A stretch of DNA of 64,000 nucleotides. Source: Cladocopium goreaui. Taxonomy: Eukaryota; Sar; Dinophyceae; Suessiales; Symbiodiniaceae. The notes under the pieces are model-generated. The model was not told the DNA's origin, made no database searches, and worked only from the letters and a program-made list of their open reading frames with translations. Made by a program: the position numbers and the translations under genes. Numbering within the stretch: the first letter of the stretch is position 1; every line of letters starts with the position of its first letter. Location: contig CAMXCT020006575.1 of the NCBI GenBank assembly GCA_947184155.2, positions 276,591 through 340,590 of the forward strand. The letters are read 5' to 3'. Below are positions 4,102 through 52,455 of the stretch, in pieces.

Positions 4102-4785
4102 GATGTCCGATGCTATAATGTAGTGTAATGTAGTGCAGTGTAGTGGAGTGTAGTGTAGTGTAATGTAGTGTAGTGTAGTGTAGTGTAGTGTAATTTGTAG
4201 TGGAGGGTAGTGGAGCGTAGTTGTGTAGTTGTAGTTGTGGTGTAGTGGAGTGTAGTGTAGTGAAGTGTAGTGGAAGGTAGTGTAGTGTAGTGTAATGTAG
4301 TGTAGTGGGTGTAGTGTAGTGTAATGTAGTGTAGTGTAGTGTAGTGGAGTGTAGTGGAGTGTAGTTGTGTAGTGTAGTTGTAGTGTAGTGTAAGTGTAGT
4401 GGTGTGAGTGTAGTGTAATGTAGTGAAGTGTAGTGTAAGGTAGTGTAGTGTAGCGTAATGTAGTGTAGTGTAATGTAGTGTAGTGTAGTGTAATTTAGTA
4501 GTAGCGTAGTGGAGTGTAGTGGAGTGTAGTTGTGTAGTTGTGGTTGTAGTTGTAGTGTAGTGGAGTGAAGTGTAGTGTAATGTAGTGAAGTGTAGTGTAA
4601 GGTAGTGTAGTGTAGCGTAATGTAGTGTAGTGTAGTGTAATGTAGTGTAGTGTAGTGTAATTTAGTGTAGTGGAGCGTAGTGGAGTGTAGTGGAGTGTAG
4701 TTGTGTAGTTGTGGTTGTAGTTGTAGTGTAGTGGAGTGAAGTGTAGTGTAATGTAGTGAAGTGTAGTGTAGTGAAGCGAAGCGAA
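4102..4785. repeat. Degenerate TAGTG pentanucleotide satellite
   Basis: Almost uninterrupted variants of GTGTAGTGTAATGTAGTGTA, with higher-order duplication: the parts around 4375-4570 and 4555-4760 share the same order of variants, including the GTTGTGTAGTTGTGGTTG block. It produces a 250-codon minus-strand open frame of Leu-His-Tyr-Thr repeats, which is an artefact of period-5 DNA lacking stops in that frame. Confidence 0.95.
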
Positions 4786-5340
4786 GCGACATCTGAACCT
4801 CCAAAAGTGGTCCGAACCCCTGGTGTTTTTAGCACTTTGACTTCGACATGTGCTTCGCGCCACAACGGCGTGCACTTTTTCGACATCTCAACTTCGAAAA
4901 GTTGTCCGGCGCTGGTGTGTTTTCTACATTTTGAGTTCGAAATGTGCTTCGCACCACAACGGCGTGCACTTTTTCTACATCTCAACTTCCAAAAGTGGTC
5001 CGAACCTGGTGTGTTTTGTACATTTTGACTTGGAAATCTGCTTCACGCCACAATGGCGTGCAATTTTTCCATCTCTGATCTGGCCAACTGGCTCCGCACC
5101 CGCCGCTTTAGCGAGCCTACTTGTCGACCCCGGAGACACAAATCATTGGAAAAACACAATGTTTCGCGACTTTCCTACCTTTTCGCGCATCTGCATCTTC
5201 TTTCTTCTGACTCTTTCTCTTCTAATCTTCTCTCTTCTAATCTTTCTCTTCTCTCTGCCTCTGCCCTGCTCTGCTTTTCATCTGTCCATGTTGTCGGAAG
5301 TTTGACTTCTAAACTTCCTCCGAACATTGCCATATATTAG
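4786..5340. repeat. 3 x ~92-bp tandem repeat with TC-rich tail
   Basis: Three units start near 4790, 4884 and 4977. Each carries CAAAAGTGGTCCG-like sequence, a TGGTGTG(T)TTT block, GTGCTTCGCGCCACAACGGC and GTGCACTTTTTC. The last unit runs into GATCTGGCCAACTGGCTCCG and then a TCTTCTAATC-rich tail. All plus frames are open and would encode hydrophobic or basic peptides. I remember this exact composite as a very common dispersed repeat in Symbiodiniaceae gene models. I treat it as a mobile or satellite repeat, not a gene, and as support for the taxonomic call. Confidence 0.75.
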
Positions 5341-30691: not shown

Positions 30692-30803
30692 ATGAGGCTT
30701 TAGATGAAAATAGATCATTTTCCACAAAATCCACTCAATTTCTTGGTTCATCTGATCCCCATCAAATCCCCATCGATCATCCCGCATCGACTCTGAAAAT
30801 ATC

Positions 30804-30947
30804 TGTATTTTACAAGGTCAGCCAACAATAGTTACAATAACTAATGGGGCAACAACAGACCGGTAAGCACTCAGCTCTTTTGAACCAACGCTATCGGGTA
30901 GATCGATGATATATACAATACATGGTTTTACTGCAGGAGTTTTTACA
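30804..30947 (-). repeat. 3' LTR of the copia element
   Basis: 144 bp, TGTATTTTACAAGG at one end and GGAGTTTTTACA at the other, matching 42944-43087 with no difference seen. Very short for an LTR. The inner flank carries the polypurine tract (30948-30956 on the minus strand). Confidence 0.95.
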
Positions 30948-31168
30948 CCCCCCTCGGGCGAGCAGGGACGACTGCGGAGAACGAATAACCCAGAAAAGCA
31001 CACCCTCGCGGGTAGCCAAATTTCTTTAGTTGGTTTTAGACATTTTGTGCAGTCTTTCAAAGGTCCCTCTAAAAAGCTCAAGCCCGTAAAACCCAGCGCA
31101 GCGTTGCAAGGAAGGCACATTACCATGCCACATCTTGCGCTATGCTACAAAAGAAAATCATCGTCTCC
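30948..31168 (-). other. 3' untranslated region and polypurine tract of the copia element
   Basis: 221 bases between the pol stop and the 3' LTR. The GAGGGGGG run immediately before the LTR fits a polypurine tract for plus-strand priming. No open frame of note. Confidence 0.7.
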
Positions 31169-34100
31169 CTAACGGTTCCAAAAGATCCAACGGCCGCCGG
31201 CCTCGTCACGGTAATACCAAGCCCCACGCCAGAAACTCCATTCTCGGCGTGCACCATAGTGATCACGATTCCAACTCCAAGAGGCATCCGGGCGACCGGA
31301 GCTTGCAGCCTTCGAAGTGACTCCTGCGGTTGCTGCTTTTGCAGTGGGCGGTGTCTCAGGCTCCAAGAATGGTCGTGCTCCTGCTTTGGATGTTGGTGGT
31401 TCAGGTACCAGAAATGGTGCGGCTGGGGCATCAGCGTGCGAGGCATCTGCGCGAGCAGAGCTTGAGGCGGCTGTGACATCTGGTGCGGTTGCGGATGCAT
31501 CAGCTTCGGCTTTGCGCTTTCGCTCAATGGTGGGCGCGACCGTGGGGTCGGCCTTATGACCTCCAGGACCTCCAGCCTTTGCAGCGGCGCTCTGCTTCTC
31601 TTTGCGTTCAAGATTGCTCCGAACCAAGGGAAGGTTTTCCTCATACACCTTTTCGAGGAAATCACGAGTGCCATCAAGAGGGACTTGGACAGTACCCTTC
31701 CAGGTCAACAGGCCACGGAATGCGCCACGACGGCCGATGTAGCTGACATATTCATCCTCTGTAAAAATGTGGCGGCCAAACATGAAACCCCAGACCTTCT
31801 TCCATGTTTTGCGGAACTCAACTGGGAAGCCATCAACGCCACGAGGCTGAGACATGAAAATCAACTTAGATAAGCAGTTCTCATTTTGGGCATTGGCGGC
31901 GACGCCAGCCGAGATCTGAGCTTTGGTCCTTGGGGGATCGGGGAGGTTGCCATATGCGAACATATCGTCAAATATGCAGTCCTGCAGGTCCTTCCCCTCA
32001 CCGTGGATGCGGTCGCAAAAAGTGACGTCGCTGGAGTATCTGTCTTCCACGTCCTCGTAGCCCAGCGCTTTTGCACGTCGATGCCTGTCGCGGCAGTCTT
32101 TGAGGACTGCTGATTCCACGGATGTGATTCCCCTGGGGCCCAGTTCTCGGCGTAGCAGGTTGGCTTGCTCTTCCGTCAAGGCTGTCAGCAAGCTTCCGCT
32201 CATCTTCCCAAACATTCCGAACCCGGCGAGACTTTGCATTCGCCGTTCAAGGATGCGGGTCCTCCTGTTGGGTTTGTTGGCCTCTTTTGTATCGCCACTT
32301 TCGTCCACTGGGAGTGGCTCAAAACCACATGTGGTGCATGTCACTTGGCCACTGACGTACTCAACCTGGCAGAGGGGACAGGAGCCCATGAAAGGTTCGC
32401 AGTACTTGGGTGCAATGTAAACACGGCGCGTCCTTGCGGGCGGCTGGTCAACTTGCATTGAGGCAGTGGCTGCATCATCATCAGTGGACTTGGCATCGGG
32501 TCGCCCCGTGCTGGTGTCATCCATTGGGTCGTCATTTGCATCATCTCGGGCAGTCAAGGTGACCGCTTTGGCTTTCGGTGCTGAGGCTGATGCCGCGCCA
32601 GTCCATGTGCTGGGCTCGAGATTGCTCTCGGCGCGGGACCAAAGCACCTGTCCTTCTTCTGAGATGCTGACCAGAAACTGCGGTGGGATGCGTTCTGAGC
32701 ACAAAATCCCATCCATTTCTGTGCGACTAAAGATGACACCAGCTTCAACTGCTTGCCGCATTGCGATTTTGACTTCGATTGGACATTTTGCTCTTAATCC
32801 AGATCGATACCCCTGCGTGCCAATACAGTGTTCTGCCATGTAGATATGAGCACGGCCACTGTTGACTGTTGCACCGCCGCCTGGAATCAGGCCGTTCTGT
32901 GCGATGCTCTTCCAGCTGCTTTTCATCGTGCGATGGAAGACAACCTCAGGAACCTCAGTCATGGCACACAGGGGCACGCCAGTGAAGGCGGCTTTTCGCT
33001 CGGGGGATACATGGTCTGAGCAATACACCATGGTTGAATTGGCATAAAGACCCCCTGCGGTTTTCAAGGCAGCTTCGGAGTGACCCTGAATTGCACGGAT
33101 TTTCACAGGATAATACGGCATGCCTAGGCCATTGTCGACAGGAAAATGGGAAATCTTTGCACACAAGAATTGGAACCTACTCTTGCCATGCTTGTCGATC
33201 TTCATTGCGGTGCCAAACAGGTTTGCGACAGTGATGAAAACATCTGGGGGCACTTCCTTGCGGAAGGCTTTGGCAAAATCCTCCAAGTCAATCCAAAGGT
33301 CTTTGTCCATTGGCACCTTGGCACAGGATCCATGCCCCCTGCAAACTTTGTTGACACGAGTTGCAAAATCAGAAAACTTCTTGTCGACGCGAGTCTGGCT
33401 GGCAATGGTCTCAACGTCGGATGCCGATATCAGCTCCAGCTCATAAGCCGCACCTTCAAAGAGGATGCCGGGCACATCGTCCCCGTCTGCATTGGTCACC
33501 ATTGTATATTGGTATTCAGGCAAATGCTCTTCCATCCAATATGCTTTCACGTGGCCAGATGCTTGTCCCTCTAAGCGCGCAGTTGCCTGCGGCTGGTACT
33601 GGCTGGATGTGGCTCCCTTGTCATCTGCGGGCTCATCCATTGATGCTGGTGCTGCTTTCGGCCGCGACTTCAACATGACCTCAGCTGTCTGGACCAGGAT
33701 TGTTGCTCTGCTGGATGCAGCGGGCTCGCCGTCGCCGGCGGCCTTTGGAGGGTCATCTTTGGGAGGCTCAGCAAACGTGCCCGAAGGCATCGTCTTGATG
33801 TCGATGTAGTCCTCAGTGTCTGGTTGTTGAGCTTCGACGTCCTCCTTGGTGAATGACCTGCCCGTCGGCACAATGTGTCTTCGGGACTCTCCAAAAAGCA
33901 ACTTGGTGATGTTTGCACATGTCTCCTGATAGGATCTTGGCAGCTCGTCCAGGACGGCGCTCATGTTCCTCCGCAAATCATCCCATGTCTCCTGGGCACA
34001 CTCAGAAAGCTCCAAACCAATTTGGCCGACCCGCCATCCGGAATCAAGTGCGAAAAGGGTAGCTGTCCAATAGGCAGCAAGGCGCGTGCGATTTTCTTCA

Positions 34101-37100
34101 GAGTTGGCGAAATGCCACTGGTCTCTGAATTCCATTGCATCGGCGTACCCCTTTGCTTTTAGCCACGGATACCGCGGATTGGCACGCCCTTGCAGGCTGC
34201 TGGTTAGAGCTTTGAATCGGGGCTCCAAATGGTCGAAAAATTGATCGAAAATTGGATGAATGCCGTAATCTGCGCTCCAGGGCGCGGTCGTGAGACCGGC
34301 CGTCTGCAAGTCCAACTCCCGGGCCTTGTTGATGAACCATGTCAAGTGGCGCTCACAATCATCCAGGATCGTGGGCCAGTGCCCGTTGGGACCATCGTAC
34401 GGCCAATTTGGATTTTGGGCAATTCCATCCTCTCCTACCAATTCATTTCCGAACCAGGACAAGTGCAGGTTGATGCGTGCATGAGGATAGCGCTCGCGGG
34501 CGTCCGCGGCCAATTCGATCCCTCTCTTGACCAACTTCTGCAAAGTTTTGCCCCAAAGCATCTCGTGGATGAACTCAGTCACGTACTTGGGTTTGCGCTG
34601 TCGGTAGTGCTCGGACAGGTCAAACTTCTTAAGTGTTTTCCTACGCCCTGTGATCAATGCACATGACGAGTCAGAGACTAAGATCCAGATTACATCATTG
34701 ACGGGCATCTCTGGCAGCATGATCTTTTCAATGTGGGACTCCTTTGGCAAAAAGCAGAAACTAAGGTATTCTGCAAGCGGATCCTCTCGACCATAGAACC
34801 TCAGGGCCGAAGCCGGCGTCCATTCGGTCATCAATCCATCCACAAGGTCCTGAGCAGCCTGATTCTCACCTTCATTGCGCATGGCCAATGCATACAAAAT
34901 GCGATTGTGAAGGAGCAACCATGCTTCTTTGTTAGCCTCACGTGTGGCTTCGAGCGCAGCCTCGCGGCTGGCCGGGTGTGCTGTGGCATATCGTGAGTCA
35001 GCCATTTTTGCAGGACAGGCACGAATGACAACGGGTGAAATCCTTTTGGATGTTTGGCCCACCACAGCTACCCGGAAACACTCATGGAGCATGTCAGTCA
35101 ACTTGAAGGTATAGTTCTCAGCAAGTTTAAGAGCTTTGCCCCTACTTTGATCATGCTCATGTTTGCCATCACATTTGAATGAGTCTAACACGGTGAGTTC
35201 TTTAAAATTTCCTGCAATAGTCCAACTTTTCTTCATTGGTTGACCGTTGTTTCCAAGAACACCCAACATACAACCATCAAAGTGATGAGTAGTCATGGAT
35301 CGTTCTTTAAGGAATCTTCTAACCATCGGCCATCTCCAATATTTGCAATTCTTGGACAGTTCAAATGCTATCAAGGTTCGTTCATCATAAACTTCATCCA
35401 CAAGTTTGACAAAAGATTTAAACAACTTGGTAAACTGTTTTTGTTGCTCTTTGATTCTTTCTTGACCCTCAACAGTAAGGCCATTCACGTTCCCCCATGG
35501 GCTACCTCCTACACAAGGCAACGATGCATAGAGTATCAAAGTGCCGTCATTGAAATCATTTCTGAAATCTTGGACTTGGGAGGCTAGCCGTTGCCGACAG
35601 CTGTTAGTGGTACCATCTTCTTTTTCGGTAACCCTAATGCAGTGGCAATCTTCATTGGACTTTCTTGGGGTACTAAGCTTCGAATCATCAGAGCAGCAAA
35701 ATTCGATCAACATTCTGGGCTTAAAAGACTTTTGGGAGCCCCCCTGATTCCCGGCAGCGGTTGCTAGTTTTGGCACCTTAGTGGAGTTCGGCGCCGCGGT
35801 GTGGCGGGCTGCTGCTTCTTCCACCTTTGTCGGGCCAATGCCAATGAGATGAATGGCATGCAACCAAAGGGCTGGTCGGGTAAAAGGTTTTGTAAGAATG
35901 TCTGCAACTTGGAAACTGGTTCCTACGTTGAGAAGATCGAACTGTTTACATTCAAATTGCTGTTTCAACCATTTGAAGTTGATGTTTTGTGTTTTGTTCA
36001 TGTGTCTCATGGATGCTGATGAACCGGTGGACATGACTGTAATAGTCGCCTGGTTGTCCTCCATAAATTTGACTTGATAAAATTCAGGGAAACTGGCCTT
36101 GAGGGAGTTGATGTCCGCAACACTACAACCTGTATCGACATTCCCATTACGGATTTCGTCAATTTCATGGTCGATCCTAGTGAACACAACATCTTCTTGG
36201 GGCTTCGCGGCATCGCGAGCTGGTTTGCCCTGCAGCTTCTTGAAAAGGTTCAACTGCTCAAACAGGGCCAGCATTGGAATGCCCTCGGCTCTCATGCTGT
36301 GATTTGCGGCAACTACCTCAGCCTCAGTTGAAGATATGGCAACAACCGTTTGTTTCTTACTGAATGCATTTAAGGGGTAATACGTGTTGGGGCCTACAAG
36401 CACAATGGCACTGCCAGTGGTACTCTTGCTATCATGTTCGCCTGCATGATCTGCATCGGCAAAAAGCCAGAGTTGGCATTCATCAAAGGCATCCCCAATG
36501 AAACCCTCTAGGAAATGGTGCTTTGTACAATGAATGTATGACACCAATCTGTGCAAGGCAACATCGCATTCTATGGACCATTTTGTCACTCTAGATGCTA
36601 AGCTTTGTGTGGCACGCAACAAGTCGAACCTTGCCATTCTGGCGGCAAAGAGTATCTTCATCAAGATCTTGCTGGCCACTGGCTGGAGTTTGCCAGGCTT
36701 TTCATCTTCACTGAGTGTGGGCCGTGCGATGCCAGCATCTGTGAATGGTGTTGGCACCTCTTTCAAGGACGATGGGCTGACTTTTGCAAGATTACAATAA
36801 TTTTCTACACAGGACCCCAGGAAATCGCTCATGTCATACCTTACTAAGTTCACGGGCTTGGCCATGACGCCAGCTTTGTTCTTCACGGCGTGTTCAACCC
36901 CCCTGAACTTAGAGGCCTTGGCTTCCTTTTTCGCCTCACGTTTGTCGCGATGTGGTCCTGGTCTGGCTTTACTTGCCATTGCAAACTGCTTGAATTTGTC
37001 AGGTCCATCTTGTCCATAACAGAAAACTGTTTTTCCTGTCCAGAATTCATTTGTTTGATTGCTAGATGTTTTCCAATCATCTGTGTAAACATCATAGCCC

Positions 37101-38365
37101 CCCTGATTGTTCCCGTCGGTGATGCTAGGACAACTTTTCAGTGTTACCTTTTTGTCAAAGAAAGTTATGCGACTTGAATTTTGACAAGTTACATCTCCCC
37201 CCTCATCAACCGGCTGGTACAATCTTTTTCGGGGTTGAATGTGGTGTCTAATCCATGCCATGTTGGTTTCATCATGCTCCCACCAGTCTTGTGTTCTGTG
37301 TTGTGCGGCTGCTGACTTCTTGGCTTCAAAGGCAAATGCGAAAGGGTGTGCCTGCGAAGGCAACCGGATGTTGTGAAATTCACGGTGCATACAGCCAAAG
37401 TAGCGGTCATATGGCTCAGGGTCACCAATGTTCACTGCAGCCTTGACGCTTGCCCATGCCTTTTCCAGATTGGCGGTGGGGCCAGCCATCTTGAAGTCAT
37501 CTACATACACAACCAAAAGACAGTTGAGCTCTTGATGATGAAAAATTGAATGCCAAATGTCAGGTAAAATTTGCTTCCAACCCTGTTTCACCACACGGCT
37601 ATTGAGATGATTTTCCCAAATACCCCCGCTATCAGGATGACCATAAAGGGCAAGTAACATAGGAACCATGGGTTGCCAGTACTTTTTCTCCCAATCTTTA
37701 GGCCATCTGTTGCGTGGAAGTGACAACCATGTGGGCACCCCTGTGAAGAGGGCTTGTATGTAGGCTTGGATTGCATCTGCCTGCTGTTTGGAGAACCCGG
37801 GCTGACTACCGAAAGCATCTAGCAGCTTTGCTGCTTCCATGGATGCTGGGGAAGAGCCTAACTCATTGAAGAGTGCGTGATCGGAATTCTCGTCCCTGAC
37901 ATTGTTCCCTTGGAAAACCGTCCTACCCTTGAACTTCCGGCGAGGGTCTGACTCAGGCAATTCAGAACCCTTCTCATAGCAAGCCTCAAAGATTCGACCT
38001 AGGTGCACAGTTTGGCCATTGCGACGAGCCTCAGCTACTATGTCGCGGCATTCACGAACACGCTTCTCATCCCAAACACCCTTATTACGGAGATTATCCC
38101 ACTCCTTATCAAGGGCGGCCTTGGCCTTGGGGTTGCTGGCAATCTCATCTTTTGATACAAGCCTAGCAACTGAAGCGAAAAGCTCGAGTGCGACCTTGAA
38201 CTCAAGTTCCTTGATCTTTTCTCGGACGAGCTCTCTAATTCGAGGCCGGTGCTCAATTGTGGCAGGCGCGGCAACTTTTGGCATTGCCGGCACGGAAAAC
38301 TTTTGGGAATTGGCTGGAATGATTTCCCAAACATTGCCTACGAGCTTTGCAGTTGCAGGAGGGCA
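31169..38365 (-). CDS. Copia pol: RT, RNase H and a ~1,550-residue accessory extension
   Basis: The frame opens directly after the TAA that ends gag-integrase and is the same frame. Residues below are counted from the GTG at 38293, as no ATG start stands out. About 95-310 is the copia RT (ALYGHPDSGGIW; catalytic YVDDF at 263-267). About 605-810 is RNase H (FADADHAGEH with Asp613, SSTEAEV with Glu657, MEDNQA with Asp746, ADILTKPF). About 860-1080 resembles a methyltransferase-type Rossmann domain (LIEFCCSDDSKL; SLPCVGGSPW). About 1195-1475 is an unidentified domain. About 1630-1890 is Tpt1/KptA-like. 1972-1989 is a CxxC-x10-CxxC ribbon. The C-terminus is Trp/Tyr/Arg-rich. Translation probably needs readthrough of the TAA or a subgenomic start. 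Confidence 0.9.
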   Translation of the reverse strand, partial: CPPATAKLVGNVWEIIPANSQKFSVPAMPKVAAPATIEHRPRIRELVREKIKELEFKVALELFASVARLVSKDEIASNPKAKAALDKEWDNLRNKGVWDEKRVRECRDIVAEARRNGQTVHLGRIFEACYEKGSELPESDPRRKFKGRTVFQGNNVRDENSDHALFNELGSSPASMEAAKLLDAFGSQPGFSKQQADAIQAYIQALFTGVPTWLSLPRNRWPKDWEKKYWQPMVPMLLALYGHPDSGGIWENHLNSRVVKQGWKQILPDIWHSIFHHQELNCLLVVYVDDFKMAGPTANLEKAWASVKAAVNIGDPEPYDRYFGCMHREFHNIRLPSQAHPFAFAFEAKKSAAAQHRTQDWWEHDETNMAWIRHHIQPRKRLYQPVDEGGDVTCQNSSRITFFDKKVTLKSCPSITDGNNQGGYDVYTDDWKTSSNQTNEFWTGKTVFCYGQDGPDKFKQFAMASKARPGPHRDKREAKKEAKASKFRGVEHAVKNKAGVMAKPVNLVRYDMSDFLGSCVENYCNLAKVSPSSLKEVPTPFTDAGIARPTLSEDEKPGKLQPVASKILMKILFAARMARFDLLRATQSLASRVTKWSIECDVALHRLVSYIHCTKHHFLEGFIGDAFDECQLWLFADADHAGEHDSKSTTGSAIVLVGPNTYYPLNAFSKKQTVVAISSTEAEVVAANHSMRAEGIPMLALFEQLNLFKKLQGKPARDAAKPQEDVVFTRIDHEIDEIRNGNVDTGCSVADINSLKASFPEFYQVKFMEDNQATITVMSTGSSASMRHMNKTQNINFKWLKQQFECKQFDLLNVGTSFQVADILTKPFTRPALWLHAIHLIGIGPTKVEEAAARHTAAPNSTKVPKLATAAGNQGGSQKSFKPRMLIEFCCSDDSKLSTPRKSNEDCHCIRVTEKEDGTTNSCRQRLASQVQDFRNDFNDGTLILYASLPCVGGSPWGNVNGLTVEGQERIKEQQKQFTKLFKSFVKLVDEVYDERTLIAFELSKNCKYWRWPMVRRFLKERSMTTHHFDGCMLGVLGNNGQPMKKSWTIAGNFKELTVLDSFKCDGKHEHDQSRGKALKLAENYTFKLTDMLHECFRVAVVGQTSKRISPVVIRACPAKMADSRYATAHPASREAALEATREANKEAWLLLHNRILYALAMRNEGENQAAQDLVDGLMTEWTPASALRFYGREDPLAEYLSFCFLPKESHIEKIMLPEMPVNDVIWILVSDSSCALITGRRKTLKKFDLSEHYRQRKPKYVTEFIHEMLWGKTLQKLVKRGIELAADARERYPHARINLHLSWFGNELVGEDGIAQNPNWPYDGPNGHWPTILDDCERHLTWFINKARELDLQTAGLTTAPWSADYGIHPIFDQFFDHLEPRFKALTSSLQGRANPRYPWLKAKGYADAMEFRDQWHFANSEENRTRLAAYWTATLFALDSGWRVGQIGLELSECAQETWDDLRRNMSAVLDELPRSYQETCANITKLLFGESRRHIVPTGRSFTKEDVEAQQPDTEDYIDIKTMPSGTFAEPPKDDPPKAAGDGEPAASSRATILVQTAEVMLKSRPKAAPASMDEPADDKGATSSQYQPQATARLEGQASGHVKAYWMEEHLPEYQYTMVTNADGDDVPGILFEGAAYELELISASDVETIASQTRVDKKFSDFATRVNKVCRGHGSCAKVPMDKDLWIDLEDFAKAFRKEVPPDVFITVANLFGTAMKIDKHGKSRFQFLCAKISHFPVDNGLGMPYYPVKIRAIQGHSEAALKTAGGLYANSTMVYCSDHVSPERKAAFTGVPLCAMTEVPEVVFHRTMKSSWKSIAQNGLIPGGGATVNSGRAHIYMAEHCIGTQGYRSGLRAKCPIEVKIAMRQAVEAGVIFSRTEMDGILCSERIPPQFLVSISEEGQVLWSRAESNLEPSTWTGAASASAPKAKAVTLTARDDANDDPMDDTSTGRPDAKSTDDDAATASMQVDQPPARTRRVYIAPKYCEPFMGSCPLCQVEYVSGQVTCTTCGFEPLPVDESGDTKEANKPNRRTRILERRMQSLAGFGMFGKMSGSLLTALTEEQANLLRRELGPRGITSVESAVLKDCRDRHRRAKALGYEDVEDRYSSDVTFCDRIHGEGKDLQDCIFDDMFAYGNLPDPPRTKAQISAGVAANAQNENCLSKLIFMSQPRGVDGFPVEFRKTWKKVWGFMFGRHIFTEDEYVSYIGRRGAFRGLLTWKGTVQVPLDGTRDFLEKVYEENLPLVRSNLERKEKQSAAAKAGGPGGHKADPTVAPTIERKRKAEADASATAPDVTAASSSARADASHADAPAAPFLVPEPPTSKAGARPFLEPETPPTAKAATAGVTSKAASSGRPDASWSWNRDHYGARREWSFWRGAWYYRDEAGGRWIFWNR
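32620..33420 (-). other. Tpt1/KptA-like RNA 2'-phosphotransferase domain within copia pol
   Basis: Pol residues about 1630-1890. Motifs in family order: VNKVCRGHG (the family has an RH here), LWIDLEDFAKAF (as GWVxVDDLL), KSRFQF, IRAIQGHS at 1732-1739, FHRT at 1786-1789 (family HGT), GRAHIYMA, and DGILCSERIPPQFL. In the family these bind NAD+ and a 2'-phosphate on RNA, releasing it as ADP-ribose 1'',2'' cyclic phosphate. The first Arg-His pair is changed to Arg-Gly-His and HGT to HRT, so activity is uncertain. The spread of matched motifs makes the fold assignment good. Confidence 0.75.
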
Positions 38366-41300
38366 TTAAGTTGCCTCAAGCCGGGCCGGTGAAGATTTCT
38401 TCTTTTTGCCCTTGCTGCCAGATGATGATGCTGGCTTTTCCTCCTGCTCCTTGGCTGCTTTCTTTGCTTCTTCCTCGATGATCAGCTTCCTATCTTGGGG
38501 TCCTAACATCTTCCACAGTTCTGAGTCAATCCCCTCCGGACGCTTTGAACCTTTGTAGTTACGTACAATCCGGTGACCATCCCAATGATGTCCATCTGGA
38601 ATAATTTCACCTTTGGGGGTCAATTTGAGATCTGGAAATACGGGCGCTTCGGGTGCATCAGGCTCGACATCGCTGTCGGCTGGTAGAGGCGTACCTGGCT
38701 CGTATTCATACTCATCTTGCGGTGGATGCAAACTGGACTCAAGAGGCACAGCTTTGGGTGTCTGCGGAATGACCTGGTCCTCGAGGCGATCGGCTTTGGG
38801 TGCTTTCGAGTCGATCAGAGCTTTCAAAGGAAAGATGAAACCCTCGGATGGCAATTCCAACCTCTTTGTTCTTTGGATTGTCAGTGCACCCCAGTTGACA
38901 TGATAATCTGCGGCTTCCAACTTGGCAACTAAGTATTCACCCTTCCAATCATGACCTGGTTGGATGTAATACCCAAGGAAAATTCCTTCATTTGCTGTTG
39001 GGGAGAGCTTACCTGATGTGTTATCCAACCTCTTGGGGTTATTCCAGAACAACACTTTGGCACCAAATGGAATGTGCATTGCAGGGAACTCTTCACCAAA
39101 CCTGAGTTGCCATGGGGAATCACTGCCGTCAAGCTGGGGGCTTGCATTGATCGCGGTCGCATGATGCTGCATGGCCAATGGCCACATCTTCAAAGGAAGT
39201 CCTGATTGCAACAAGTTGCTCCGGGCACCTTCCAACATCTGACGAACTTCGCGCTCAGCAAAAGACTTTGATGAATCTACGTATTCAATGGAAGTCTGGT
39301 GTCTGTAACCCAAATCCTTGATGGCCCTGATCAATTCTGGGGAATTGTCAGTGTACACAACTTGAACATCATCCTTTGATCCAATGAAGTGATTCAAACC
39401 ATCAACACAGCTTTGTGAGTCCTTGGACTGGCTAGGGTAGACATACCGATATTGGGTGTGCAGATCTTTCAACACCAACGCAACTTGCTCCCCCCTGAAA
39501 CCCTCTTCTACATTTTTCTTGATGATGACATGATCCCCAATGATGTGGTCACCAAACACTTCAGTTTCGATTCTCTTCTGACCACCCTTCTTTCGTGCCT
39601 GAGGTGCCATCATCCTTGCTCGTTGGCAAGTTCTGCAAAAGGGGTTCTTGGGGAAATGCGTGTACTGATGTTGGGTACTTGCAGCTTCAGCCAACAGATC
39701 CTCAGTCTTGCGGCTTCGGATGTACTCCTGCTGAGCGTCATCCTCCACCAACTCATCCAACTGCTCTTCATCTTGGGCTTCGTCCCGCTTGGCTTTTGAG
39801 CTCGACCGTGAGGTCGGCATTGCAAACAACTTTTTGAGGTGCTTATCCTTTTGAAATTGATCTTTGGGATAAACCTTGCAACTATCATCCAAGATTGGGA
39901 CATGACCTTCGATCTTGAGCTGGACGACCTTGTCATCTGGACGGACTAGGATTGGTTTGCCATTGGCAGGCCATACGAAACTGTAACCCTGATCTACACA
40001 TCTCGTTCCTACAGAGAGCACAGCTGGGGTATGATCAAGCACATACGGATGCACGGGATCTGGCAATGCGGACAACTTGACATCAGCAACTTCGTTTGCC
40101 TCAGTCGAACCGTTGGCTGTGACTAAGGAAATCGGATGCTCGGCTGCACGGCAGTTCTTGGCACTTACATCCCTCAGCATTCCTTTGGACACAAGATCGG
40201 ATTCACTACCTGAGTCAACAAGCCAACTAACACCGGCCTTTGGCGCAGCTGTGGCAATTGACGGGAAACGACCAATGTCTCTAAGGGCTTTGGGACCGCT
40301 GATGAACCTGCACTCTTTGCATGTGATGTCACGTGTGTCCTCATCCCAACAACAAAACCCACAACTTGGTGCAACATCTGAATCATGAAGTTTCACAGTT
40401 TCTTGGAGCTGTCTTGCACGAACCTGAGCTTCATGCTGTTCAACCTTTGATGAAACTGGAACATCTTCAGCTGTCTTGTACACCTTAGTGAACTCTCTTG
40501 GACGGTGCTTGACTGGGACTTGATGACCAACTGCTTTCACTTCGATCACATGTGGGGCCGTTCGGAAGCTAAGACGCTTCATGCTGACACTTGCCTCATC
40601 AGAGCACGAAGTTGCCTTCGGCTGTTTTCGGACGATGCATGCAAACTTCTGGATCAGACATGGAGCGGCTGTGGAATCCTTGCCCTTCTTCTTGGGAGCG
40701 GGTGAATTGGCCCTTTTGGTGTCTTTGGTGGCGGCAGCGGCTTTGTCATCATGTTTATAAAAACATTTGTCACCACGTCTGCACTTTCCCTGGGCATGAT
40801 AGATGCATGGGGTTTTGGCCATTTCTTCTTTGGACATCTTCTTCCCCTTATCATCCTTATTGCCCCTTGATGGTGAACGTGTTTTGGTTCTTCTGGGTGA
40901 TTGAGTTCGAGATTTATCATCTTTGACATGCTTGAATGGACACTTCTTCCCCTTATCACAGGTACCCTTTTGGAACTTATAGCAAATTTTGTCACCTTTG
41001 CCTCCTCGTTCCTGCGATCTACCACGACTTGGAGAGCCCTTTCGGCCGCCGCGACCATCGCCTTTGGCGGGTGCGGCCTTTGTGTCCTTAATCCCAGCCT
41101 TGTTCTTCTCCGCAATGCGGTTCCTGTTCTCCCTCAATCGTTCACGATCGATCAAGTTCTTCATGGATTGATGAAGAAAACTGTAAGACTTTTCATGGGA
41201 TTTCTCATGAGCACGGTCAAACACCTCGATGTCATATTTCAGCAACTGACTTGGTCGGATCTGCCTCAACAAGATGTCCCTTAACACAGCATCATCAGGG

Positions 41301-42913
41301 GTGACAGCCATGCCAGCTAGGGTAGCATCCCATTTGTTGATGAATCTTCGGAGATCCTGGACAGTATCGCCTACTTTGACAACACCCAAAAGATCTTCTA
41401 CTCTGTAAAGGCTACCTGCTTCTTCTGATGTCTTGAAGTAGTCCTCAAACATAAGCAGAACATATCTTCCCCTGACCTGGATGCCTTTTCGGGATTGCTG
41501 CTCCTTGAAATTCAAGATCCTAGTTGCGAGGTCCCCTCCGGCTGAGCGCGTGAGCGCTGCTGATAACTTTGTATCCAGCGTAAGGAACTTTCCAGGATCT
41601 TGGAGTTTCTTCTCCAACTGCTCTCTGGTGCACTCTTGATCGTACACCTCGTTGAGCCAGAGCCACGCCTCATCCGGGCGATCTGAACAGCTCTTCACTT
41701 CATCCCTGACATGATTCTTCCAAGTTCTATATGACTCCGGAGCGGGCATGTTGTTCAGCTTGATGAGTTCAGCCTCCTTAGTTTTTGGCTTATCCTTTTC
41801 TTCCCTTTGGGTTAAGGCTTTCACCAATTCAATAAGATCTGAGGGACCCATTACTTGCTGTTGCTTGGTTGCGCTCTTAGGAGATTCATTTGGGGGAGTT
41901 TTGATAGCTTCAGTGGGAGTGAAAAACCCTGACTGCGTTGGCAATTGGGGCTGGTCGTTGCCGACAGCCGGCTTTTGCTTGGGACTGCCACCTTTGAGCA
42001 GCTCATCCAACTTGGCCTTTGCTTCCTGCGCCAACACTGCAGGCGTCTTCAACTCAAGAATCGGCTCCTCACTGCCTCTGGCAGCCTGTGCATCGGATGC
42101 TTTGGGAGTGGCAATATTGAAGTGGGGCACGCTAGTGGTAGCGGCCGGCTCGGCGTTCTGGACGGATGCTTTCGGAACGGAGGCATGCTGCGCTTTGGCA
42201 ACATGCTTTAACTGCTCCTGAAGATCATCGATTTGGTCCTGAAGGCTAAGGTTCTGAGCCGCTGCCTCGTTGATCTTGTCGGCCATCTCCTTCTTGTAGT
42301 TCTCAAACTCAGTCCTCAAACTGATGAACCTGGCCTGATCAATTGCAGCCTGATCTTCATATTGCTTCTTTGTGGCAGCTATGGCATTCTTTGCATGTTC
42401 AACTGTCTGTGCATAGGAAGCTTCGAATTCACTAGTGATACGTTTCCTTTCCTCTGCAATTTTCTGATCATGCTTTGTGTTTGCCTCTGCCTTTACATCC
42501 TCTATTCTTTTGTCATGCGATGCCTGAGCCTGATTCAACCTGACCTCCATCTCGTCGCCTCGTTTCCTCTCCTCGTTGAGGGCACTAATGGCATTACCTT
42601 CAACCTCCTGCAGCCTTTGCTCATACTCCTGCTCCTGCATTACGAGTCTACTTGACCATTCGTTTCGAATTGCGTCAACTACTCCATGCATTATCTGAAG
42701 GTGCCTCTGTTCAGCTTCCCTCATGACTTGCAGGGTATTCCCACTAGTAATCTGGGACAGGTTGTTTTGTATGAAGGTAAAGTACGCAACAACGGGTTGG
42801 AACATTGTTTCGTCATCCATCGGCTCAGGGTTGCCCCCGGCCATATTAGGCACGGCGACAGCCGATGGACCTGACCCTGGAACGGCGAGAGGATGGTCAA
42901 TTGGGGTCCCCAT
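38366..42913 (-). CDS. Copia gag-protease-integrase polyprotein
   Basis: ATG at 42913, 31 bases inside the 5' LTR; 1,515 codons. Residues 64-240 form a long charged coiled coil. 360-600 is Gag-like (VYDQECTREQLEKKLQ, LRRFINKWDATLAGM). Two CCCH zinc fingers (C-x7-C-x5-C-x3-H) lie at 644-662 and 703-721, replacing the usual CCHC knuckle. A zinc ribbon C851-x2-C-x10-C-x2-C868 precedes the aspartic protease motif WLVDSGSESDLV (Asp900). Integrase has the HHCC residues His1082, His1086, Cys1093, Cys1096, and catalytic Asp1150, Asp1189 and Glu1220. It ends at TAA 38366-38368, in frame with pol. Confidence 0.93.
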   Translation of the reverse strand: MGTPIDHPLAVPGSGPSAVAVPNMAGGNPEPMDDETMFQPVVAYFTFIQNNLSQITSGNTLQVMREAEQRHLQIMHGVVDAIRNEWSSRLVMQEQEYEQRLQEVEGNAISALNEERKRGDEMEVRLNQAQASHDKRIEDVKAEANTKHDQKIAEERKRITSEFEASYAQTVEHAKNAIAATKKQYEDQAAIDQARFISLRTEFENYKKEMADKINEAAAQNLSLQDQIDDLQEQLKHVAKAQHASVPKASVQNAEPAATTSVPHFNIATPKASDAQAARGSEEPILELKTPAVLAQEAKAKLDELLKGGSPKQKPAVGNDQPQLPTQSGFFTPTEAIKTPPNESPKSATKQQQVMGPSDLIELVKALTQREEKDKPKTKEAELIKLNNMPAPESYRTWKNHVRDEVKSCSDRPDEAWLWLNEVYDQECTREQLEKKLQDPGKFLTLDTKLSAALTRSAGGDLATRILNFKEQQSRKGIQVRGRYVLLMFEDYFKTSEEAGSLYRVEDLLGVVKVGDTVQDLRRFINKWDATLAGMAVTPDDAVLRDILLRQIRPSQLLKYDIEVFDRAHEKSHEKSYSFLHQSMKNLIDRERLRENRNRIAEKNKAGIKDTKAAPAKGDGRGGRKGSPSRGRSQERGGKGDKICYKFQKGTCDKGKKCPFKHVKDDKSRTQSPRRTKTRSPSRGNKDDKGKKMSKEEMAKTPCIYHAQGKCRRGDKCFYKHDDKAAAATKDTKRANSPAPKKKGKDSTAAPCLIQKFACIVRKQPKATSCSDEASVSMKRLSFRTAPHVIEVKAVGHQVPVKHRPREFTKVYKTAEDVPVSSKVEQHEAQVRARQLQETVKLHDSDVAPSCGFCCWDEDTRDITCKECRFISGPKALRDIGRFPSIATAAPKAGVSWLVDSGSESDLVSKGMLRDVSAKNCRAAEHPISLVTANGSTEANEVADVKLSALPDPVHPYVLDHTPAVLSVGTRCVDQGYSFVWPANGKPILVRPDDKVVQLKIEGHVPILDDSCKVYPKDQFQKDKHLKKLFAMPTSRSSSKAKRDEAQDEEQLDELVEDDAQQEYIRSRKTEDLLAEAASTQHQYTHFPKNPFCRTCQRARMMAPQARKKGGQKRIETEVFGDHIIGDHVIIKKNVEEGFRGEQVALVLKDLHTQYRYVYPSQSKDSQSCVDGLNHFIGSKDDVQVVYTDNSPELIRAIKDLGYRHQTSIEYVDSSKSFAEREVRQMLEGARSNLLQSGLPLKMWPLAMQHHATAINASPQLDGSDSPWQLRFGEEFPAMHIPFGAKVLFWNNPKRLDNTSGKLSPTANEGIFLGYYIQPGHDWKGEYLVAKLEAADYHVNWGALTIQRTKRLELPSEGFIFPLKALIDSKAPKADRLEDQVIPQTPKAVPLESSLHPPQDEYEYEPGTPLPADSDVEPDAPEAPVFPDLKLTPKGEIIPDGHHWDGHRIVRNYKGSKRPEGIDSELWKMLGPQDRKLIIEEEAKKAAKEQEEKPASSSGSKGKKKKSSPARLEAT

Positions 42914-42931
42914 AGCAAAGTAGTGAGACTA

Positions 42932-42943
42932 CGGCTGATAACC
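42932..42943 (-). promoter_or_regulatory. Putative primer-binding site of the copia element
   Basis: The first bases after the 5' LTR on the coding strand read GGTTATCAGCCG. They resemble the TGGTATCAGAGC primer site used with initiator-Met tRNA, with an extra T. Position is exactly right; the tRNA of this host is unknown to me. Confidence 0.55.
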
Positions 42944-43087
42944 TGTATTTTACAAGGTCAGCCAACAATAGTTACAATAACTAATGGGGCAACAACAGAC
43001 CGGTAAGCACTCAGCTCTTTTGAACCAACGCTATCGGGTAGATCGATGATATATACAATACATGGTTTTACTGCAGGAGTTTTTACA
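42944..43087 (-). repeat. 5' LTR of the copia element
   Basis: 144 bp, matching 30804-30947 with no difference seen. It must hold the promoter; no TATA box is evident on the minus strand. The plus-strand (TA)n stretch GATATATACAATAC near 43050 is the only AT-rich candidate. Confidence 0.95.
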
Positions 43088-43110
43088 ATATCAAGCATTT
43101 TTGTTGTCCC

Positions 43111-47344: not shown

Positions 47345-47372
47345 CAACCTGGTTATGACTAACATAGCCATG
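47345..47372. mobile_element. Left part of MITE family B copy split by the YR element
   Basis: AACCTGGTTATGACTAACATAGCCATG abuts the left end of the element. The remainder of the same MITE resumes at 54744-54820 (GAAAATGAATC ... AAATAACCAGGTGG). Compare the intact copy at 47028-47141. Confidence 0.7.
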
Positions 47373-47592
47373 TCAATGCAGAGACTTTTTCCTCCACCAC
47401 CAGAGTTGCTCAATTTCTGATGGCTTTGCCACCTCTCTTAAACAATGGTACCTTGGCAGGCTCGAGCTGTTGTACAAGGGGCCCTGGCCGTCACCAGGGA
47501 ATCCCTCACCTTTGACCTTCATCAAAGGAGGCAAAATCAAATTATGTTGCCATGCCCAAGGACCAAAAAGAGAGAAAAAACATCACCTATCC
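47373..47592 (-). repeat. Split direct repeat B2
   Basis: 220 bp from TCAATGCAGAGAC to ACATCACCTATCC, matching B1 at 47720-47939. Outer end of the element, preceded by CATG. Confidence 0.95.
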
Positions 47593-47636: not shown

Positions 47637-47719
47637 GATCTGAAAACTGCAGGTCAGAGACCGGCTGCTACCTTCAAAAGCTCTTACTGACATGTCTACT
47701 GATACATCATAAGGACATG
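47637..47719 (-). repeat. Split direct repeat A2
   Basis: 83 bp from GATCTGAAAACTGC to AAGGACATG, matching A1 at 54661-54743. It abuts B1 directly. Confidence 0.95.
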
Positions 47720-47939
47720 TCAATGCAGAGACTTTTTCCTCCACCACCAGAGTTGCTCAATTTCTGATGGCTTTGCCACCTCTCTTAAACAATGGTACCT
47801 TGGCAGGCTCGAGCTGTTGTACAAGGGGCCCTGGCCGTCACCAGGGAATCCCTCACCTTTGACCTTCATCAAAGGAGGCAAAATCAAATTATGTTGCCAT
47901 GCCCAAGGACCAAAAAGAGAGAAAAAACATCACCTATCC
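47720..47939 (-). repeat. Split direct repeat B1
   Basis: 220 bp, matching B2. The recombinase stop codon (47930-47932) lies inside it, so the last codons of that gene are part of the repeat. Confidence 0.95.
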
Positions 47940-48892
47940 ACGGTTTCCATCCTGGCTTTTGCCGCCAACAACTGAGCAAGTTGTCGCATATACTGTTTCT
48001 GGTCACCCGTGATTTGCAGATGACTCAAAGTGGCTGCAGCATCTTGCAGATAAATTCGTGCTGTTGAAGTGGAAGCCCACCGGCCACGCAGTAATGTCTG
48101 CTCAATATTCTGAGCAACAACAAAATCCCATGTGGCTCCACCCCGGCGGAAGCTATACATGGAAAAATAGCCAGGGATTTGGAGATGCTCCAAAATGGTG
48201 AAGAAGAGGTGACGAAGAGAAGCAGGCGAGCAGCTCAAAAGGGTATCCTCAGGGGCTTTGTCCTTGAGGGCGTGCAGCAACCAGTAGTTTGCAACTCTGC
48301 TTCGGCACACAACCATTTCACTGGCATTCTTGCGCTGCCCTGTCTTGGTTTGACCCAAAGACAGGACAGCTTGACCACCAGCCCAGGTTATGTCTTGCTT
48401 CCGTAAATGGTACAACTCGCCTGGTCGTAGAAAGGTATCAAAACACACCAAAAATGCTGCCGCAGCCGCTGGCTTGTTGAGCTTCAGACAGGCCCCACTG
48501 ATGGCCACCACCATCAATGGGCTGATAGGTAGCACTCTGACTGGCGGCTCCATTTTCTGCCAGGATTTCAGCAAACGCCAACTGTGACGAAGTTTACCTG
48601 CTATTTCCGGCAGATAGTGCTGCAAAGCCGCCAATCCATCTGAGGCATACCCCTTCGGGTAGCCCTCAGCAAAGAGGTGCTCCAACCATTGCCCTGTAGC
48701 AACATCGAAATCATCCCAGGTAGCTGGGTAGGATCCGGAATGCTTCCAGAACCTCAAAACTCGCATGGCTGCTTGTTGGTAACGCACATGAAGACCGGGG
48801 CTGAGAACTTTATCATGTAGCTTCAGCGAGGCTCTCTGTTTCTTCCTTTCTTGTCGGCGCCTTTCAGTTTGAACTTTGGTTTGTTTGCCCAT
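47930..48892 (-). CDS. Tyrosine recombinase of the YR retrotransposon
   Basis: ATG at 48892, 320 codons, overlapping the end of the RT ORF by 70 bases in another frame. It starts with a basic segment. The core has the box I arginine in TFLRPGELYHLRK (Arg156), a beta-hairpin lysine in QTKTGQ (Lys183), SFRRGGAT at 247-254 in place of the family HxxR, a tryptophan in GRWAS (272) and the nucleophile tyrosine in ARIYLQDA (Tyr281). The first position of HxxR is Ser here; otherwise all catalytic positions are present. It would integrate the circular DNA copy at a short identity such as CATG. Translation may rely on frameshift or reinitiation from the RT ORF. Confidence 0.9.
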   Translation of the reverse strand: MGKQTKVQTERRRQERKKQRASLKLHDKVLSPGLHVRYQQAAMRVLRFWKHSGSYPATWDDFDVATGQWLEHLFAEGYPKGYASDGLAALQHYLPEIAGKLRHSWRLLKSWQKMEPPVRVLPISPLMVVAISGACLKLNKPAAAAAFLVCFDTFLRPGELYHLRKQDITWAGGQAVLSLGQTKTGQRKNASEMVVCRSRVANYWLLHALKDKAPEDTLLSCSPASLRHLFFTILEHLQIPGYFSMYSFRRGGATWDFVVAQNIEQTLLRGRWASTSTARIYLQDAAATLSHLQITGDQKQYMRQLAQLLAAKARMETVDR

Positions 48893-51800
48893 CGGCTGGG
48901 AAGATCAGCAGGGTTGTCGTGAGTAGCTACGTAGCCTATGGCCAATTGTAGCCCCCCTGAGAGACTCAGAGCTGACAATCTTTGAAGACCAATCCGTAGC
49001 CGGCGGCTGCTTGAGCGACCTTTTGCTATCACTGCCGCCACAACCTGGCTGTCCACCAGGTGAAGCAGTCGACTCCTAAAGCCGTCCACTTTTCGAAGGC
49101 GCCATTGCAAGCTATTGACAACCCCTTGAAGCTCTAGAACATTAATATGTGCAGCAAACTTCCAAGGATATCCATGTATGATTCGCCAATTGAAGAGGCT
49201 AGAACGAATTCCCGCACGCGGCCATGCTTTTGTTCTGAAAGGAATGCCTACATCAAGTTTAACATCACAACCACCTCTGTCACTCTGCCTTAGAAATTCT
49301 TGAACCAACCTACCAGAGGCGGCATCAGGTTTGCTGGACGGCAAAAACTCAGGTTTGCTACACCACCCTTGAGGGGCCACCTCACCCCTTGCTAGGATGC
49401 TGTCAAGGCACCTGGTTCGGTGGAGTGGGTTCACTGTCTTGAGCAGTTCGTCCAGCAAGAAGGTAATAGCGTAGACGTTGAACGAGTTCCCCAGCATGCT
49501 TGCCCCCATGTTGAACGCCTCATCCATGGTCAGTTTGGGATTCAATCCGCATGACACATATCCTTGCGGAAACCCCATCACTCGTTCACGTTCCATGAGG
49601 CTGGGCAATCTCAAAGATCCATCAGGGCGAAGGACCATCTGCCAGCTTTCATAATTGTAAACCTGAAAGCGATGTCGGTCCCGGGTCCACCTTTCAATGG
49701 CCTCTTGCGAGGCTTGGTGAATACCGGCCGGCTGTCGAGGGGGCGAAGCCCGAGGGAGCGCCCTCGTCAAGGTCGGCAGGGGATCTTTGCAAGCCCGTTG
49801 ACAGAGTGGATCTAACCACCAGTCCCTGTCCGCCAACAGGGGGGGGAAGATCCATTCTCGGTATCCATCTCGTTGTAGGAGAGCCTCCCCTGTCCTAGCT
49901 TCCACTTTCCAGTCCACCCAGAAGAGGCGCGGCCTTCGGCACTGTGAGAACGCCGTGCAGTCAACGAGGATTGGCTCAACCTCAAGTGTTGCTGAAAACT
50001 GATCCCTGTTGTCCTTGGTCATGGAGAAGACATTTTCCACAAAGGAGTGAACAGGGCAGTTGAAGGCTTTCCGCAACCCTTTGAAAATGCGCGGCATCTC
50101 AAAGAACAGTTTGCTTCGTGCACCTTGCAGTCCTTGACGATTCGCCAGAAGAGCAGAGAGGTCTTGGCAGGGACTACCACCCCCTACCAAGACCAAGTCC
50201 ACTGCGTGTCCGCAGCTCTTACTGAGGTTGTCCAAGACACCTTGGTTGATCTTCTCCACATTGCCCAACTCTATGACTCCAGGCCAACGTCGCCGCACAA
50301 GCCGCTTGCAACTTGCATCGATTTCGGATGAAGCGAAGGCCACAACCCTGCACTGCAGCCTGCATAAGCCCACCATAAGGGCAGCAATGCCATCGAAGAG
50401 TGACACCACCACAATGCGGGGACCTTCGGTTTTTCTAGACTCCATTGCACCTTGAGCAGCAAAGGGTAACATGCGGTCACGTCGATAAGCTGGGCTTGCA
50501 AGTTGGTTCAGCATAGTGTGCCCTTCATCTGTAAGGCCTCCAGACGCGCACAGGCCACCACCTGCTTCACTCGCATCGGAGCTGGTAACCATGCTGCTGA
50601 CCTGAGCCCTCAGGTCAGTTCCAGCCATTGGCAGCATGGCAATGCACCTCAACAGCTCTTGGATGCCGGAGGGCGAGAGAGGTCGTCTCACTTGCAAGTT
50701 CCCTCTCGGCCACACTGCAGACAACAGGCACATCAGAGGTCTTCGGAACTCGAAACACCTCACCAACCTCCCCAAGACCATCAGTCGCACCTTGGTAGCC
50801 GTGGTTCCACGCCCCATCATCCAGATGGCAAAGAAGGCCACTTCCAGCTTCTTGTCTAGTGGAGCGGAGACCGTTCCTCTCAGGCCGTCTACCTCTGCTC
50901 CCATCCGAATCACCTTGGGCTCCCTCAAGTGTGCTTTGTTCTCCGCTATGCCAACCCCCCACCTTCCATAGGCCTGCCGCTGCCTGGCGTGGGTCTCACT
51001 CATAGAGCCTCGCTTTTCTTCCCAGCCTTCACTGGGAACCAGCTCTGGACAGTCAAAGTCATCCAAATAGAACTGCACAAACTCTGTAAGGGTTCCATCT
51101 GAGGACTGGGGGGCTGGCAAGTCTCGCCGCCATTCCAGCTCGGCTGCATGTCCTGCTCCCTCAGGTTGTCTCGCCATCCCAATCTGACGGTGCAAGTGCT
51201 GAAAGAGGCTGACCGCCTGGATCCACCCCATAGGAATCACTCGTGACGCGACGTACTCCCAGGGCTGAGTGGACCCCACCACTTCGCCAGGCACCGGCCA
51301 CGCAAACGCCATAAATGGTCGCCAGCTGTCTGGCAGCTCCCAGGCATAGAAGGCACCTCGTTGATCATCTCCACTCCATAGAAGAGTCTCACCATCCCTT
51401 AGAATCAGTTGGCACCAAGCAGAAGAACTAGATAACGTGTTGAGGTCACCAGCCATCAAGTTCTGGAAGGCATTTGTGGGAACAAAGTTCATGATTAGTC
51501 TGGTAACACGTTTTTCACTTCCCTCTGCTTTACCTTTTTTCTCCACAGAGAACGCACCATTGAGCACTGGGACCCCCCCAGCGTGAAAGACATTTTCAAG
51601 GGGTATGGCTTCTATAAGCCCCCTGTCAAATAGGACTCTGCAGACCCGGTACCATTCAGTTTTACTGGCATTTATGCGGGCTTTGGGAACAACTTTTGGC
51701 CACTGTTCAGGGGGTTTTAGAGTCAGAGAAGGATCACACACCCAATCCTTAATGCCGCCAGTTGCAGCCGCCGCTGCACTCAAGGAGCCAGCCACCCCTC

Positions 51801-52455
51801 GAATTGGCAGTCCAGGAAGTAGTTCTTCCAGCCTCAAGGGAAGCGCATGACCCACCTCATCCCCTGAATAATCAATGGAACGTGATTGAACAAGTTCTGA
51901 AAAAACGGGAAGTGTGACCTCTTTCAAGGGCTCCTGACAAAAACCGTCAATCCATCTGTTGATGACATCAATGGCAGCTGCTTGAGTGGGGGTGTGTTTT
52001 TCTGACTTCCAAGATCTATAAACCCAATCATCATTCATACCATTCAATACCACTATCACCAGCAAACGCCACAACTGTCGTGACCCCTCCCGGACCAACC
52101 GCCCGAGTTGTTGACGCCCCTTCTTTTTGCTGGGCCCAGTGGACAAGTTCGACGCCACTAGCAGGCCGGATTGAGTAGCCTCCATTCGGGCCACAAGTTT
52201 CATGGCAGCTCCCACAGGAGTCAAGGGAAGAGGCAACACATCCCTGACTCGAATAGGTGTTGTGGAGGAAAGTGAAAACTGTTGTTCAAACCATTGGCAC
52301 ATCGACTTCCCATCACGTGGGCTGCAAAGTAGGAGCTGCATCACAGAAATTCCAAGCTGGAGAACTGAGGGACGCAAAAGGGTCACTTCGGTGCACAGTT
52401 CACAAAAAGCCACCTGAAAAAGTTTTTCTGAAACATTTTCAAAAAGTCACACTTG
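48823..52455 (-). CDS. RT - DNMT3-like methyltransferase - RNase H protein of the YR retrotransposon
   Basis: Open from about 52455 (a TGA precedes it), with residues counted from GTG at 52413 (1,196 codons). RT: RLIMNFVPTN (305), GDDQRGAFYAWEL (348), IPMGWIQAVSLFQHL (393), catalytic YLDDF (449-453). RNase H begins at TSSDASEAGGG (Asp613), is interrupted at about 665-995 by a full cytosine-5 methyltransferase, and resumes with NVLELQGVV (Glu1094), HLVDSQVVA (Asp1121) and THDNPADLPSRW (Asp1166 or 1170). No ATG lies at the N-terminus, so frameshift from the overlapping upstream frame (52793-52383) or use of an internal Met is likely. Confidence 0.92.
49431..50421 (-). other. DNMT3-like cytosine-5 DNA methyltransferase domain
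   Basis: Residues about 665-995 of the RT protein. All core motifs are present: I SLFDGIAAL, II SSEID, IV GGGSPCQDLS with nucleophile Cys749, GLQGARSKLFFE, VI FVENVFSM, VIII QCRRPRLFW, IX MERERVMGFPQGY, X GNSFNVYAITFLL. SLFDGIA, the GL-x7-LFFE string after PC, and MERxxGFP match the DNMT3 pattern rather than Dcm or DNMT1. The expected reaction is S-adenosylmethionine-dependent methylation of cytosine, probably CpG. The domain replaces the loop between the first catalytic Asp strand and the Glu helix of RNase H. Confidence 0.9.

Follow-up and report, generated by a model that had tools for sequence, protein, structure and literature searches.

A Tpt1-like domain in the pol extension of a copia retrotransposon from Cladocopium goreaui

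Capture of DNA methyltransferases (DNMTs) has been described for long interspersed nuclear elements (LINEs) and DIRS elements of Symbiodinium and for a Gypsy element of a charophyte, and the copia elements of Symbiodinium are said, in the available passages of the same paper, to have no DNMT domain (PMC5890265). To judge from these passages, this is the nearest published case among the matches listed in a full-text search of open-licence papers. No report of Tpt1, KptA or PTS_2-RNA in retrotransposons was found among those matches. For most Tpt1 proteins the function is called elusive in excerpts of PMC6582358. Here we describe a 64,000-nucleotide stretch of the dinoflagellate Cladocopium goreaui (contig CAMXCT020006575.1, called the window below), in which a copia element of 12,284 base pairs (bp) on the minus strand carries a Tpt1-like domain in the extension of its pol open reading frame (ORF2). 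A preliminary description of this DNA had noted the domain and knew of no report of it in copia elements; none appeared among the open-licence matches listed.

The Tpt1/KptA-like domain occupies positions 32636..33385 of the minus strand (ORF2 residues 1637-1886) and consists of a winged-helix RNA lobe and a nicotinamide adenine dinucleotide (NAD) lobe. Its core, residues 1652-1866 (window 32696-33340), was matched by the Pfam model PF01885 with an E-value of 1.1e-10 and 42.3 bits when the whole ORF was used, and 5.7e-13 and 49.7 bits when the domain was excised; both pass the curated cut-off of 26 bits. RNA 2'-phosphotransferase was also ranked first, weakly, in NCBIfam (E 5.3e-5, 23.2 bits against a cut-off of 239) and in PHROGs (E 5.7e-5). 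In the sequence search of the PDB the top entries were human Tpt1 (E 9e-4) and mouse Tpt1 (E 0.015), with values of 1.3e-5 and 0.001, respectively, when a profile of five sequences was used. The preliminary description had placed the family motifs, in order, inside 32620..33420, and they lie there in the same order on the minus strand: CRGHG (33343-33329), KSRFQF (33184-33167), IRAIQGHS (33100-33077), HRT (32935-32927), GRAHIY (32857-32840) and DGIL (32713-32702). The motifs it named are all present, but the first helix reads R-G and not R-H, and its HxT is HRT where Tpt1 has HGT.

The structure was predicted from an alignment of 15 sequences, namely the window copy, four relatives (P0002-P0005, see below) and 10 of 60 shorter proteins. 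The five models had a mean pLDDT (predicted local distance difference test) of 80.7, 79.3, 72.0, 68.7 and 60.3, and the best one was used. It contains a winged-helix RNA lobe joined to an NAD lobe of the ADP-ribosyltransferase type and fits Tpt1 across both lobes: all 18 Foldseek rows at E <=0.001 are Tpt1/KptA, as are ranks 1-18 of VIA-align. The superposition itself is loose, the best Foldseek match having a root-mean-square deviation of 5.5 and a target TM-score of 0.70, and this weighs against the explanation favoured below. We regard the ORF2 domain as practically certain to be a Tpt1/KptA homologue, and the idea that it is some other ADP-ribosyltransferase, not related to Tpt1, has next to no probability. 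The proposal of a Tpt1/KptA-type domain in a copia pol extension is thus borne out by a Pfam match above the cut-off and by an agreeing fold; the profile search suggested with it returned a significant KptA match, not the blank that would have spoken against it, and the structure prediction returned a Tpt1 fold with both lobes at a mean pLDDT of 80.7. Directly ahead of the Tpt1-like unit, about 43 residues (window 33428-33556, minus strand) are confidently predicted as beta structure; this segment is partly conserved among the five sequences and lies outside the Tpt1-matched part.

Relatives were collected in three protein searches. The first, restricted to lengths of about 1306-4154 amino acids (aa), gave four matches with 99, 78, 62 and 37% identity over the searched region, three of them polyproteins of 3599, 3909 and 3973 aa. 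The second, started from P0004, added P0005 (2200 aa). The third, made with the domain alignment, added 60 shorter proteins at its threshold of E <=1e-5. Judged by identity and partial coverage, these 60 appear to be fragments that belong to the lineages already sampled. P0002, P0004 and P0005 represent clusters of 282, 21 and 175 member sequences, respectively. The domain of the window copy has 80, 64, 39 and 40% identity with those of P0002-P0005, and the retention in diverged copies that the preliminary description had wished to see examined is found in all four, down to about 37-40% identity. Separate trees of the reverse transcriptase-RNase H (RT-RH), methyltransferase-like, SGNH-like and Tpt1-like segments of the five sequences have identical topology. 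Because the trees of the segments are congruent, a single capture before the five lineages split is the simplest history, and on this comparison of sequences the Tpt1-like domain was probably captured once, before the five sampled lineages separated.

Along ORF2, conserved blocks are interspersed with fast linkers. When the Tpt1-like segment was evolved neutrally in simulation, 56, 14, 0 and 1 of 500 runs were free of stops at 18.6, 35.2, 58 and 61% divergence, respectively, so at 58 and 61% drift would not be expected to keep the frame open. Within the domain the relatives align with short gaps only, which argues that no broken stretch was skipped. In the stretch of the NAD lobe aligned to human Tpt1, the residues shared with the human protein are preferentially invariant (14/29 against 8/64, Fisher p 3.3e-4). 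Three points weigh against selection on the domain: P0002-P0005 are predicted proteins, in which open frames are built in and stops cannot show; the simulation is weak at the two closest distances; and the domain diverges faster than RT-RH (18.6% against 4.1% between the window copy and P0002). Faster divergence would suit a passenger sequence without function that hitch-hikes on an active element, as would the fact that most of the 60 shorter proteins span only part of the domain. However, the bias of conservation to the motifs, the Tpt1 fold and, with the same reservation on predicted proteins, the simulation at high divergence all go against a passenger, which we hold to be highly improbable. 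Retention of the domain by selection is in our judgement very probable, a grade set slightly lower than at first because predicted proteins cannot show stops.

The tallies of active-site residues draw on 65 sequences (the window copy, P0002-P0005 and P0006-P0065), which contribute 67 aligned stretches; P0001, a 98% duplicate of the window, was excluded. With the partial coverage of most shorter proteins, each tabulated position has 26 to 42 letters, and these shorter proteins represent clusters of kindred copies in the database, which should not be counted as independent events. Most NAD-pocket residues are kept across the aligned stretches. The first Arg of the tetrad is retained in 35/36, the Arg of GxR in 28/29, and HGT is replaced by HRT, with His in 31/31, Arg for the middle Gly in 32/32 and Thr in 28/32. 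The canonical tetrad Arg-His-Arg-Arg reads Arg-Gly-Arg(Lys)-Arg in the copia domain family, where we equated R-G with R-H by a gapless back-count in the alignment of the profile with Clostridium Tpt1, whose stretch at this place has a low score of 1.6 bits. Since the tetrad is altered, we use the name 'Tpt1-like' and do not speak of a canonical Tpt1.

These changes count against an active enzyme. The tetrad His is Gly in 36/36; the third position is Arg in 33/42, Lys in 8/42 and Ser in 1/42; and the fourth is Arg in 28/30 and Lys in 2/30. The tetrad is described as essential in the available part of PMC6333775, and human TRPT1 H41A was unable to ADP-ribosylate 5'-phosphorylated RNA, as stated in excerpts of PMC6582358. 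A pseudoenzyme would account for such losses in a domain whose fold is kept; it would bind phosphorylated RNA ends, NAD+ or ADP-ribose and serve packaging, particle assembly or primer placement. Set against it are the near invariance of most NAD-lobe residues and of the first Arg, and the finding, in the same part of PMC6333775, that the tetrad His touches the junction 3'-phosphate only and that its loss in one bacterial Tpt1 slowed step 2 by no more than threefold. We consider the pseudoenzyme possible but rather doubtful. On these residues, the NAD side of the domain looks usable and its RNA-phosphate side is altered, and we lean, with some reserve, towards catalytic activity. Some lineages may be inactive, since the third Arg is replaced by Lys or Ser and the fourth by Lys in part of the set.

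We therefore put forward the following explanation, to which we give a probability of roughly 55% as a whole: a single capture, retention by selection, and use as an NAD+-dependent enzyme of nucleic-acid ends in replication. In a copia lineage, a domain of the Tpt1/KptA type would have entered the pol polyprotein behind RNase H; it has kept its two lobes, the one for RNA binding and the one for NAD. The domain would now be a specialised enzyme working on RNA (or DNA) ends that bear a phosphate while the element replicates, and would reach the particle as a piece of pol.

In the most specific version the primer is a tRNA severed in its anticodon loop; the domain would take the phosphate off the cut end, or ADP-ribosylate it, giving a usable 3' end from which reverse transcription would start. 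Repair pathways can open a 2',3'-cyclic phosphate to a 2'-phosphate, and some Tpt1 enzymes reportedly strip terminal 2'- and 3'-phosphates. The loss of the tetrad His would fit this version, because the 3'-phosphate held by that residue would be absent from a free tRNA end. In this version the methyltransferase-like and SGNH-like domains of the extension would help to turn pol into a multi-enzyme kit for the ends and the modification of nucleic acids. The primer-binding site (PBS) has no TGG with which the CCA end of a tRNA would pair, and its complement reads GG-CUGAUAA-CC, an anticodon-loop form with the primer end near nucleotide 40, from which we infer that a half-tRNA may act as primer. 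The primer end of half-tRNA-primed copia relatives is reported at the same position, near nucleotide 40, in the accessible part of PMC1181622, and ends with a 2',3'-cyclic phosphate are a frequent product of RNase cleavage, according to the abstract of PMC6277466. No tRNA was found in the 64-kb window. The anticodon implied by the PBS would be GAU, which we take to be unusual for a nuclear tRNA-Ile, and for this reason the clearing of phosphate from a cleaved half-tRNA primer by a Tpt1-type enzyme is offered as a tentative and, on balance, unlikely version.

The target might also be the host, in that the enzyme would modify host RNA or DNA ends or undo a defence based on RNA ends or NAD; this is compatible with the explanation given above. 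According to excerpts of PMC6582358, Tpt1 enzymes are able to transfer ADP-ribose to the phosphorylated ends of RNA and DNA. The methyltransferase-like and SGNH-like domains borne by the element would suit such a role, whereas no pointer to a host target was seen in the sequence. Pol products normally remain with the particle, and we know of no RNA-end or NAD-based defence in dinoflagellates, so a host target appears improbable.

That diverged copies keep a Tpt1 relative beside the copying enzyme hints at an element that edits the ends of RNA or DNA to its own benefit. To our knowledge, RNA-repair enzymes are rare in retroelements, and the way in which half-tRNA-primed copia elements form a usable primer end is not settled; an element-encoded Tpt1-like enzyme would make that step testable. 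If the explanation is true, a Tpt1 relative would have a biological role outside tRNA splicing, and the capture of modifying enzymes that is known from algal retroelements would, with the methyltransferase-like and SGNH-like domains, reach copia as well.

The element itself has the terminal features of a Ty1/copia retrotransposon with long terminal repeats (LTRs): TG...CA ends, a short target duplication, a PBS and a polypurine tract. All coordinates in this paragraph refer to the minus strand. The 5' LTR (42944..43087) and the 3' LTR (30804..30947) are each 144 bp long, TGTA...TACA, with ends set by the 5-bp target-site duplication GATAT (upstream copy 43088..43092, downstream copy 30799..30803). 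The two LTRs have 100% identity, which points to a recent insertion. The PBS, GGTTATCAGCCGTAG (42929..42943), directly follows the 5' LTR and lacks a TGG start, and the polypurine tract, GAGGGGGG (30948..30955), precedes the 3' LTR. ORF1 (38366..42913, 1515 aa) has a gag-like part with CCCH fingers, for which a Pfam match above the cut-off was obtained, followed by a protease-like DSGS (40216-40205) and an integrase-like HFPKNPFCRTC (39658-39626), with GDHVI, YTDNS and SSKSFAERE, recognised as motifs only. ORF2 (31169..38293, 2374 aa) has the RT motif YVDD (37507-37496) and RNase H motifs, and then an extension of about 1500 residues. Its sole RT match is RVT_2, the copia-type model, at 18.8 bits, below the cut-off of 31.6 bits, and Pfam gave no integrase, protease or RNase H match anywhere in the window. 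The protease and integrase of ORF1 and the RNase H of ORF2 are presumed from motifs, and the gene order integrase, RT, RNase H is likewise read from motifs only. A single in-frame TAA (38366-38368) parts ORF1 from ORF2 between integrase and RT; P0002, P0003 and P0004 are uninterrupted there, and the stop may be a defect or regulated. The third-position G+C of ORF2, in blocks of 200 residues, is 0.46-0.52 over residues 1-1200 and 0.53-0.64 over residues 1201-2200, a shift that might mean that the extension arose separately.

Two further domains of the extension were recognised in a low-confidence model, whose predicted fold resembles a C5-methyltransferase and an SGNH hydrolase. The C5-methyltransferase-like domain (35024..35731, minus strand; ORF2 855-1090) has invariant LPC and FEL motifs and is more conserved than the Tpt1-like domain; it has no Pfam match. 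The SGNH/GDSL hydrolase-like domain (34037..34702, minus strand; ORF2 1198-1419) has SDS, GNEL and DQWH blocks, and its catalytic residues are invariant in 5/5. For the region of both, the sequence profile found nothing in the PDB better than a lipase at E 0.75, and NCBIfam and PHROGs gave a single row, a chloramphenicol hydrolase at E 0.19. After the Tpt1-like domain, a zinc-ribbon-like CPLC...CTTC (32324..32380, minus strand) was seen by eye (Pfam Zn_Ribbon_1, E 1.9).

Elsewhere in the window lies a second retroelement-like stretch (47930-52413, minus strand), whose ORFs match a C-5 DNA methylase domain (E 4.1e-11) and, weakly and below the cut-off, a tyrosine recombinase (E 9.4e-4). The stretch resembles SymbioDIRS-Dnmt3 and so makes a host of the family Symbiodiniaceae plausible. 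Beside it are identical 224-bp direct repeats (47369-47592 and 47716-47939). An ORF at 4052-4804 (minus strand) has weak pentapeptide-repeat matches, below the cut-off.

When compared with Tpt1/KptA/TRPT1 (PF01885), the copia domain shares the two-lobed fold and the IRA-QGHS, HxT, GR-H, GxR and DGIL motifs. It differs in having R-G for the R-H of the tetrad and HRT for HGT, about 25 additional residues between QGHS and His, an additional beta segment in front, and its fusion to a retroelement pol, whereas the solved Tpt1 chains among the matches listed are 177 to 253 residues long. CR1-type LINEs carry an esterase (SGNH) domain in ORF1, so that an SGNH-type hydrolase in a retroelement protein is common to both; CR1 elements, however, are of a different class, have the domain in a different protein and are not known to carry Tpt1. 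With the half-tRNA-primed Ty1/copia elements of the genus Hemivirus (copia, Ty5, 1731 and Osser, in the available part of PMC1181622), the element shares integrase-like motifs before RT/RNase H, short LTRs, a 5-bp duplication and a PBS without TGG, but it is 12.3 kb long and its pol extension of about 1500 residues has three enzyme-like domains. SymbioDIRS-Dnmt3, SymbioLINE-Dnmt and KnitGypsy-Dnmt3, as given in the passages of PMC5890265, are likewise retroelements with a captured nucleic-acid-modifying enzyme; those are DIRS, LINE and Gypsy elements with a DNMT, while here a copia element has a Tpt1-like domain. Enzyme capture by retroelements is therefore already known, while the Tpt1-like domain, the host element and their combination appear to be new.
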